Shown here piece by piece: positions 39,116 to 41,610 of a DNA stretch of 64,000 bases (position 1 is its first letter; each line of letters starts with the position of its first letter). The notes beneath the pieces are model-generated. The model saw only the letters and a list, made by a program, of their open reading frames with translations, was not told the DNA's origin and did no database searches. Source of the DNA: Massilia sp. 9096 (GTDB lineage Bacteria > Pseudomonadota > Gammaproteobacteria > Burkholderiales > Burkholderiaceae_D); contig NZ_JQNN01000001.1 of assembly GCF_000745265.1 (NCBI RefSeq), forward strand, positions 930,001-994,000, read 5' to 3'. The position numbers and the translations under genes were made by a program.

Positions 39116-39721
39116 ATGCAGCGTCAATTGAATCCCGCTGCGCCGCGGCGCCTGCGCTGTCGCATGGCCGGCTTCGCGATCGCCTTCGCCGCCTCGGTGT
39201 GGCTGCAGGGCGGGGCGGCGAGCCCGGCCTCGGCGCAGAACATGGCGTCCAGCACCTCGCTCGAGCGCCGCGTGAAGGCCGCCTTCCTGTATAAATTCCT
39301 GGGCTACGCCGAGTTCCCGCAGGGCGCGTTCGCGGACGCCGGCGCACCCCTGGTGATCGGCGTGCTCGATGCCGACGACCTGGCGGCCGAACTGGCGCGC
39401 GTGGTGGCCGGACGCACGGTGGGCAACCGCGCGGTCGTGGTGCGCGTGCTGCGCGAAGGCGAGGGCGCGGTGCCGGTGCACATGCTGTTCGTCGGCGGCT
39501 TCGAAGGCGCGCGCGTGGCGCGCCTGCTGCGCCAGAGCGGGGGCATGCTGGTGGTCACCGAGTGCGACGGCGGCCTGCCGCCGGGCAGCGCGATCAATTT
39601 CCGCATCGTGGACGAGCGAGTACGGTTCGACGTCGCCCTCGATGCGGCCGAACGTAATGGCATCAAGCTGAGTTCGCGGCTCCTGACGGTCGCGAACCGT
39701 GTGCAGAAAGGGGCGCAATGA
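39116..39721 (+). CDS. YfiR family periplasmic protein
   Basis: A 201-residue exported protein of the YfiR (DUF4154) family. After a signal peptide (MAGFAIAFAASVWLQGGAAS, from Met17) come LERRVKAAFLYKFLGYAEFP, the typical opening, and VIGVLDADDLAAELARVVAG, VHMLFVGGFEGARVARLL, GMLVVTECDG and INFRIVDERVRFDVALDAAE. YfiR in Pseudomonas binds in the periplasm to the membrane cyclase YfiN and holds it off. Here the gene is coupled by a 4-bp overlap (ATGA) to a hybrid histidine kinase instead. The start is either ATG 39116 or ATG 39164; neither has a clear ribosome site. Confidence 0.9.
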   Translation: MQRQLNPAAPRRLRCRMAGFAIAFAASVWLQGGAASPASAQNMASSTSLERRVKAAFLYKFLGYAEFPQGAFADAGAPLVIGVLDADDLAAELARVVAGRTVGNRAVVVRVLREGEGAVPVHMLFVGGFEGARVARLLRQSGGMLVVTECDGGLPPGSAINFRIVDERVRFDVALDAAERNGIKLSSRLLTVANRVQKGAQ

Positions 39722-41610
39722 TGGGCTTGCGCGACAGCGGCACGGTCCGCGACAAACTGATTCTGATGGCGGTGTCGACCACCCTGGCGGCGCTGGTGGC
39801 GGCCGCGCTGGCGATGCTGCTGGTCGACCTGCGCGCCTTCCAGCGCTACTGGACCGACGACCTGATGACCCAGGCCGACATCATGGCGCGCGTGACCGCC
39901 CCGGCGCTGGCCTTCAACGACAACGAGAGCGCGCGCCAGAACCTGGCGGTGCTGCGCGTGCGCCCGCAGATCCTGGCGGCGGCGATCTACACCAGCGCCG
40001 GCACCCGTTTCGCCTCGTATGCGGCGGTCAAGGATGCGCGCTTCCCCGAGCATCCCGAGGCGTCGGGCTACCGCATCGAAGGCGGCGAGGTGGCGGTGTT
40101 CCGCAATATCGTCGAGAACGGCGAGCTGGTCGGCACGGTCTACCTGCGCTCGCGCTACGGCCTGTTCGAGCGCCTGCTCGGCTATGGCGCGATTCTGCTG
40201 GCGGTGATGCTGGGCGCGCTGGCGGTGGCGTATTTCGTGGCCGCGCGCCTGCAGGCCGGGATCACCCGGCCGATCGAAGCGGTGACCAGTGTCGCGCGCC
40301 AGGTGATGCAGCGGCGCGACTTCAGCCTGCGCGTGCCCGGCAAGGAAAGCGGCGAGATCGGCTTGCTGGTCGACGCCTTCAACGACATGCTGGCCGAGAT
40401 CGGCCGCCGTTCGCACGCGCTGCAGGAAGCCAACAGCACGCTCGAGCACGAGATGGAAGTGCGCCAGCGCGCCGAGGAACTGCTGCGCCTGGCCGACCGC
40501 CGCAAGGACGAGTTCCTGGCCACGCTGGCGCACGAGCTGCGCAATCCGCTGGCGCCGATCCGCACCGGCCTGGACATCCTGCGCCTGCGCAGCGGCGACG
40601 CCGCCGCCACCCAGCGCGCGACCGACATCATGGAACGCCAGCTGCGCCAGATGGTGCGCCTGGTCGACGATTTGCTGGACGTCTCGCGCATCAACACCGG
40701 CAAGTTCACGATCAAGAGCGGCCGCGTCGAGCTCAAGGCGGTGGTCAACGACGCCTTGGAAGTGGTGCGTCCGACCATCGAGCTGCACGGCCACGAGCTG
40801 GAGATCGACTTGCCGGACCGCCCGGTGTTCCTCAACGGCGACGCCACGCGCCTGGCGCAGATACTGTCCAACCTGCTCAACAACGCCGCCAAGTACACCA
40901 ACCGCGGCGGGCGCGTCAGCCTGAAGGCGACGGTCGAGGACCGCACGCTGGTGCTGGTCGTGCTCGATACCGGCATCGGCATCGCGCCCGACATGCTCGA
41001 TACGGTGTTCGAGATGTTCGTGCAGGTCGATTCGACGCTCGAGCGCTCGACCGCCGGCCTGGGCGTCGGCCTGTCGCTGGCGCGCAAGCTGGTCGAACTG
41101 CACGGCGGCGTGATCGAAGCGCACAGCGCCGGCCTGGGCCACGGCAGCCAGTTCGTGGTGCGCCTGCCGATCGTGGTCGAGCCGGAGATGCCGGCCAAGC
41201 CGACCCCGGCCGCCTTCATCAGCGCCGAGACCTACCGCATCCTGCTGGCCGACGACAACGTCGACTTCGTCAACAGCATCGGCGCGTTGCTCACGGCGAT
41301 GGGGCACAGCGTGGTCATCACCCACAACGGCCGCGATGCGCTGGCCGCGGCGCGGCGCTTCTGCCCGGACTACGCCTTCCTCGACATCGGCCTGCCGCAG
41401 ATGTCCGGCTACGACCTGGCGCGCGGCATCCGCGACATCCCGTGCGGCGCGCTGACGATCATGATCGCGGTGACCGGCTGGGGCCAGGAAAAGGACCGCC
41501 AGCTGGCCTTCGAGGCCGGGTTCGACCACCACATGGTCAAGCCGGTGCGTTTCGAGCAGATCGAGGAAATCCTCAACAACCGCAGCCTGATCAAGAAGCT
41601 GCGTACCTGA
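39718..41610 (+). CDS. Membrane hybrid histidine kinase with CHASE8-like sensor, coupled to YfiR
   Basis: A 630-residue inner-membrane kinase. TM1 (about 12-35, LILMAVSTTLAALVAAALAM) and TM2 (about 155-178) bracket a periplasmic domain with QADIMARVTAPALAFNDNES and RPQILAAAIYTSAGTRFASY, matching the CHASE8 sensor found in YfiN cyclases. HAMP (about 180-232, ITRPIEAVTSVARQVMQRRD) follows. HisKA has FLATLAHELRNPLAPIRTGL (His about 275), the ATPase domain NLLNNAAKYTNRGG, DTGIGIA and GLGVGLSLARKL, and the receiver LLADDNVDF, YAFLDIGLPQMSGYD and HMVKPVRFE. AAAGGGG precedes the ATG. The YfiR partner presumably represses it from the periplasm. Confidence 0.93.
   Translation: MMGLRDSGTVRDKLILMAVSTTLAALVAAALAMLLVDLRAFQRYWTDDLMTQADIMARVTAPALAFNDNESARQNLAVLRVRPQILAAAIYTSAGTRFASYAAVKDARFPEHPEASGYRIEGGEVAVFRNIVENGELVGTVYLRSRYGLFERLLGYGAILLAVMLGALAVAYFVAARLQAGITRPIEAVTSVARQVMQRRDFSLRVPGKESGEIGLLVDAFNDMLAEIGRRSHALQEANSTLEHEMEVRQRAEELLRLADRRKDEFLATLAHELRNPLAPIRTGLDILRLRSGDAAATQRATDIMERQLRQMVRLVDDLLDVSRINTGKFTIKSGRVELKAVVNDALEVVRPTIELHGHELEIDLPDRPVFLNGDATRLAQILSNLLNNAAKYTNRGGRVSLKATVEDRTLVLVVLDTGIGIAPDMLDTVFEMFVQVDSTLERSTAGLGVGLSLARKLVELHGGVIEAHSAGLGHGSQFVVRLPIVVEPEMPAKPTPAAFISAETYRILLADDNVDFVNSIGALLTAMGHSVVITHNGRDALAAARRFCPDYAFLDIGLPQMSGYDLARGIRDIPCGALTIMIAVTGWGQEKDRQLAFEAGFDHHMVKPVRFEQIEEILNNRSLIKKLRT

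Follow-up and report, generated by a model that had tools for sequence, protein, structure and literature searches.

Can a YfiR-like periplasmic protein serve as the partner of a histidine kinase, and to which output would such a kinase be connected? This question is raised by two overlapping genes of Massilia sp. 9096, which lie in a stretch of 64,000 nucleotides (contig NZ_JQNN01000001.1, positions 930,001 to 994,000), called the window in the following; its coordinates are used throughout. One of the closest known counterparts is YfiN/YfiR/YfiB (TpbB) of P. aeruginosa, a system that also has homologues in E. coli and Y. pestis (HmsC). How YfiBNR links the state of the envelope to cyclic di-GMP (c-di-GMP) and biofilm has been studied well. 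A reading of the window without database searches (the sequence-only reading) had suggested that a YfiR-like gene is coupled here to a CHASE8 histidine kinase instead of a diguanylate cyclase, and that the envelope-stress module YfiBNR had thus been re-wired to phosphotransfer. Our results indicate that the pair is real and conserved, and that it is probably a YfiR-controlled hybrid kinase.

The first gene (39116..39721, + strand; an alternative start is possible at M17, 39164) encodes a YfiR/HmsC-like periplasmic protein with a DUF4154 domain at approximately residues 50-197. Its stop codon overlaps the start codon of the kinase gene (39718..41610, +) in a 4 bp ATGA motif (39718..39721, +), by which translation of the two genes may be coupled. 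The kinase begins with two membrane segments (residues 14-32 and 158-176), which enclose a periplasmic CHASE8 domain (Pfam profile, residues 42-143, 39841..40146). HAMP (residues 182-228, 40261..40401), HisKA with the phospho-acceptor H272 (residues 263-328, 40504..40701), HATPase_c (residues 374-485, 40837..41172), and a C-terminal receiver (REC; residues 508-619, 41239..41574) follow, all on the + strand. The overlap and the domain order are thus as the sequence-only reading had described them.

Both assignments were well supported by profiles. The YfiR-like protein scored 105.6 bits with PF13689 (DUF4154; cut-off 24.9). The CHASE8 profile PF17152 gave 60.6 bits (cut-off 27), and another sensor family, which the sequence-only reading had named as the finding that would overturn it, was rejected on this score. 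A search of the Protein Data Bank (PDB) with the CHASE8 region alone returned weak matches to ribosomal proteins only. The YfiR-like protein has the YfiR fold; a PDB relative was reached by a profile search, and none was found with the single sequence. Both proteins scored well over the curated cut-offs of NCBIfam families, NF053591 (YfiR_like_TOL0243) and NF053592 (HK_near_YfiR_like; 301 bits for the kinase, cut-off 194), and nothing that was tested sets them apart from these families. The second family is named after the neighbouring YfiR-like gene.

Next, the distribution of the pair was quantified. The kinase exceeded the NF053592 cut-off in all 37 genomes of the genus that were searched (including its own), and the named relatives of the focal pair were mostly from Massilia and close genera. 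In total, 166 distinct pairs of yfiR and CHASE8 sequences were collected from many families (effective number about 103). The output was a kinase in 140 pairs, GGDEF-EAL in 10, and GGDEF in 4; for the remaining 12, no output was detected or it lay beyond the sequence that was fetched. In a sample across the phylum, DUF4154 was carried by 34 of 160 genomes, with 49 genes over the cut-off (one of 50 rows was under the family cut-off and was not fetched). A CHASE8 kinase adjoined 33 of these 49 genes (32 of 48 without the focal gene), versus five genes beside a CHASE8 cyclase (four GGDEF, one GGDEF-EAL). Two genes had a CHASE8 neighbour of unassigned output, one was a direct YfiR-kinase fusion, and for eight no CHASE8 neighbour was found. 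Among the 39 CHASE8-adjacent rows, one stops at a contig end (L109) and in another the kinase domains are split over frames (L104). Counted by family, the kinase form occurred in 11 families and the GGDEF form in four. The survey that the sequence-only reading had called for therefore came out on the side of the kinases: in this sample most DUF4154 genes belong to the kinase form. One genome (G050) contained seven YfiR-like genes (L074, L076, L077, L078, L080, L081, L112), and for four of them no CHASE8 neighbour was found.

A quick tree of 107 pairs placed the three canonical YfiNR pairs in one separate clade (100% support in the approximate likelihood-ratio test SH-aLRT). The GGDEF-EAL outputs were scattered among the kinases, and at least eight changes of output were counted, two of which were forced by starred branches. 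The tree contains several long branches; being unrooted, it gives no direction of change between kinase and cyclase. The proposal that YfiBNR was re-wired is therefore only partly borne out: the kinase form is the more common one and the canonical pairs stand apart, but the docking motif described below is shared.

In P. aeruginosa YfiN, mutations at A66, A67, V68, and F70 of the AAVVF motif yield YfiR-insensitive alleles, according to passages of PMC3375315; most of the activated alleles described there no longer bind YfiR, whereas V68A retains some binding. The counterpart in the focal kinase is P62-A-L-A-F66-N-D68 (39901..39921, +), in which F66 aligns with the YfiR-docking phenylalanine F70 and D68 follows two residues on. 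F66 was present in 166 of 166 YfiR-paired CHASE8 domains and D68 in 165, regardless of the output, and F66 was also retained in all 48 paired domains with less than 45% identity to any other. One cyclase partner (L061) carries a literal AAVVF in the same column. For comparison, CHASE8 proteins without YfiR were drawn from 60 fetched CHASE8 places, "unpaired" meaning that the fetched stretch held no YfiR, although the genome may encode a YfiR at another locus. In the first 20 unpaired proteins F66 was found in nine and D68 in 13; the conserved G139 was retained in 17 of 18, L76 dropped to 12 of 20, and other conserved columns fell too. Among 22 further proteins, taken later, the phenylalanine occurred in both paired ones and in five of 20 unpaired ones; four of these 20 (L379-L382) were under the Pfam cut-off. 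The hidden Markov models (HMMs) of the domains were trained iteratively on the same loci, so highly divergent CHASE8 partners may have escaped detection. Three partners that were missed or non-adjacent (L106, L107, L289) keep the phenylalanine, while the motif is absent at L113 and L074. The conservation of F66 and D68 supports docking of YfiR on the CHASE8 domain of the kinase, and on these alignments a contact is likely.

The input was a different matter. The identity as a canonical YfiR was rejected: the focal protein scored 15.4 bits with NF053586 (sequest_YfiR; cut-off 85), and the columns of Cys145 and Cys152, a pair essential to YfiR folding in P. aeruginosa according to parts of PMC4655355, hold L154 and N161. 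Its only cysteines are C15 and C150. A C-x6-C motif of the C145-C152 type was found in none of 140 kinase-paired YfiRs, in three of four GGDEF-paired ones, and in none of ten paired with GGDEF-EAL. The columns of Cys71 and Cys110 hold G82 and V121, so that the focal protein has no redox pair there. In the kinase-paired YfiRs, cysteine occupies these two columns with weighted frequencies of 0.52 and 0.54, or about one half, and judged by the alignment this pair is not generally lost. An OmpA-like gene of the YfiB type was present within 5 kb of three of four GGDEF-type genes versus one of 145 kinase-type genes (the flanks vary, and some are shorter than 5 kb), and the single kinase-type case was on the opposite strand. 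This genome has nine OmpA hits, all of them away from the focal pair and from a second pair described below. A nearby yfiB was thus rejected for the kinase form. Because the kinase-paired YfiRs lack cysteines of the C145-C152 type and mostly lack a nearby YfiB, the envelope-stress input cannot simply be transferred to them, and their cue must differ at least partly from the canonical envelope and redox cues. The kinase form thus does not retain the canonical YfiB input unchanged, and it retains the redox input no more than partly. Together with the HisKA-HATPase-REC output in place of GGDEF and the separate clade of canonical YfiNR, these features distinguish the focal pair from YfiBNR.

The genome of Massilia sp. 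9096 contains a second pair, yfiR2-kinase2 (C1:3.797 Mb), in which a third gene, encoding a REC-GGDEF-EAL-REC protein, overlaps the kinase2 gene. A third CHASE8 kinase (L037, 2864-5788, - strand) has no YfiR beside it and is followed by a REC-GGDEF-EAL gene. Because Phe-x-Asp is retained in this kinase (scored as L005), it might share the YfiR of another locus.

With moderate confidence, we propose that the two genes form a module of a periplasmic inhibitor and a sensor kinase, operating by docking, release, and phosphorelay. The observed basis consists of the domains, the gene pairing, the fold, the conservation of the docking motif, and the linkage of some relatives to c-di-GMP enzymes. After export, the YfiR-like protein would dock onto the F66/D68 motif through a hydrophobic face in its C-terminal part and thereby lock the kinase in one state of signalling; if YfiR and YfiN are a guide, this is most likely a state of low autophosphorylation. 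The YfiR-like protein would be released when a periplasmic cue acts on it, which could be a ligand, misfolding, or sequestration but would not be a YfiB encoded nearby. HAMP would then switch HisKA, and the phosphate would pass from H272 to the C-terminal REC; an Hpt protein from another locus would hand it on to a response regulator. For some members of the wider family this regulator would be a REC-GGDEF-EAL protein, and the relay would end at c-di-GMP, as it does for YfiN, with a phosphorelay in between.

The linkage to c-di-GMP enzymes was quantified for 60 loci with YfiR and a CHASE8 kinase, taken from a class sample and the phylum sample; two of 62 kinase loci were short of downstream sequence. 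A GGDEF or EAL domain was encoded in the same chain or in the next gene (a same-strand gene starting at most 1.2 kb downstream) in 18 of 60 loci versus three of 40 control kinases (one-sided Fisher 0.005), and by family in 16 of 32 versus three of 17 (one-sided Fisher 0.026). The controls came from the same genomes (38 hybrids, at most four per genome) and were chosen before their surroundings were seen; one control (G386:C29) was excluded to keep 40. The strongest single case was a locus (L263) in which the yfiR gene is followed by one chain of CHASE8-HisKA-HATPase-REC-REC-Hpt-REC-PAS-GGDEF-EAL. Among the named loci outside the focal group (L184-L206), a downstream GGDEF/EAL gene was present in eight of 18. 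Giant CHASE8-kinase-REC-GGDEF-EAL chains were also seen at two loci without YfiR (L258 and L268, the latter scored as L233), with T and R in the column of the docking phenylalanine. For the family, the linkage in 18 of 60 loci makes the wording "instead of a diguanylate cyclase" too sweeping; for the focal copy it may still hold, as the next paragraphs show.

How firmly does this evidence carry the proposed module? That two unrelated genes are adjacent by chance is a negligible possibility, rejected on the pairing conserved in 37 of 37 genomes and in 166 distinct pairs from many families, and on a family name that cites the YfiR-like neighbour. A more serious alternative is that the YfiR-like protein is a ligand-loaded activator or co-receptor that sits permanently on the kinase and relays a ligand signal, as in LuxP-LuxQ and TorT-TorS. 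We regard this as unlikely, since F66/D68 matches the site at which YfiN mutations escape repression by YfiR, which favours the same docking mode, and since no ligand of the focal YfiR-like protein is known. Two observations nevertheless weigh against the proposed module. F66 was also found in 14 of the 40 unpaired CHASE8 domains of both sets, which are more divergent overall. Furthermore, one locus (L112, 4042-6636, - strand) encodes a direct fusion of YfiR to a kinase without CHASE8, which led to 118 database proteins (P0241-P0358); 107 of these carry PF13689 and PF02518 (counted by eye), and there are also proteins in which YfiR is joined to GGDEF or PF07228 domains. YfiR-kinase fusions occur in Nitrosomonas, Vibrio, Sedimenticola, Gallionella, and others. 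They imply that YfiR is able to feed a kinase without CHASE8 and may be more than a removable repressor.

The proposed end point was also weighed against an output of the focal kinase other than c-di-GMP, via an unlinked transcriptional regulator or another relay, with the c-di-GMP linkage confined to other branches. We consider this alternative a real one, with a probability not far below even. A downstream GGDEF/EAL gene was found in none of 51 named focal-type loci, 42 of the 60 surveyed loci had no GGDEF/EAL domain fused or next, and an HMM scan of the window, which did not include Hpt, found no regulator after the kinase. The enrichment itself depends on the class sample (12/28, p 0.0007), for which the kinase family was the seed; the phylum sample, seeded with DUF4154, was not significant on its own (6/32, p 0.14). 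Nor was the difference significant when GGDEF/EAL genes on both strands were counted out to 5 kb (20/62 versus 7/40, p 0.076). The control kinases were taken from the top-scoring HisKA rows and not randomly, and two of the 18 linked loci (L090, L102) have GGDEF genes without REC. On the other side stand the linked second copy in the same genome, the eight linked loci among 18 named ones that are not of the focal type, and a REC-GGDEF response regulator gene approximately 4.6 kb upstream of the pair (33440..34504, - strand). This nearby regulator is a possible c-di-GMP output, though an unproven one; it adjoins a hybrid kinase of its own, its synteny is conserved at the genus level, which is weak evidence of function, and it was not accepted as the cognate output. 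For part of the YfiR-kinase family, c-di-GMP as the end point is plausible but unproven. More tentatively still, and with more doubt than belief, it could be proposed that the YfiR-CHASE8 front end mainly controls kinases, with YfiBNR as a minor cyclase branch and one Phe-x-Asp motif serving all outputs. The direct cyclase would then have been exchanged repeatedly, in many lineages, for a phosphorelay to c-di-GMP via REC-GGDEF-EAL, and the focal pair would be such a relay with an unlinked target.

Control of a hybrid kinase by a periplasmic binding-protein-like partner, as proposed here, is known from LuxP-LuxQ and TorT-TorS, although the sensor domains differ. AwsXR of P. fluorescens likewise combines a periplasmic partner with a membrane signalling protein, but its output is a cyclase, unlike that of the focal kinase. 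An activating AwsX mutation is included in Table 1 of PMC3375315. Passages of the same paper (Malone 2012) call the YfiR-YfiN core modular, state that distant YfiN homologues often have GGDEF-EAL, Hpt, or sensor histidine kinases in place of the GGDEF domain, and mention a hybrid kinase with two YfiRs in Thauera sp. MZ1T. The focal pair resembles these kinase-output homologues, in which a YfiR homologue accompanies a CHASE8/PAS front end on a (hybrid) sensor kinase. In the open-licence PMC literature no functional study of a YfiR-kinase pair was found, in line with the sequence-only reading, but the kind as such is not new, given those passages and the NCBIfam names for both halves. The focal pair thus belongs to an already described kind, to which the present analysis adds the frequency, the motif test, the loss of YfiB and of cysteines, and an uneven linkage to c-di-GMP. 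If the kinase branch shares the docking site, the Phe-x-Asp motif would help to predict YfiR-controlled sensor proteins, and hybrid kinases of unassigned input would gain a testable periplasmic partner.

The upstream surroundings of the pair are also conserved within the genus. Upstream, and divergent from it, lie genes for a PAS-REC protein (37870..38697, -) and a PAS-PAS-GAF hybrid histidine kinase (34600..37650, -), both syntenic in the genus, followed by the REC-GGDEF gene. Of 50 focal-type loci whose upstream flank covers at least 7 kb, 42 retain this full cluster; some organisms are represented in this count by loci from two sources. A match to RF02278 (Betaproteobacteria toxic small RNA) was found at 38822-38881 (-; 67.4 bits, gathering cut-off 50), in the interval that separates the genes for the PAS-REC and YfiR-like proteins. 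Downstream of the pair, four tRNA-Arg(acg) genes lie in a row (42565-43413, -), and several short open reading frames overrun these repeats. A further match, to RF02514 (5' ureB small RNA; 127 bits), is located at 63425-63710 (-).
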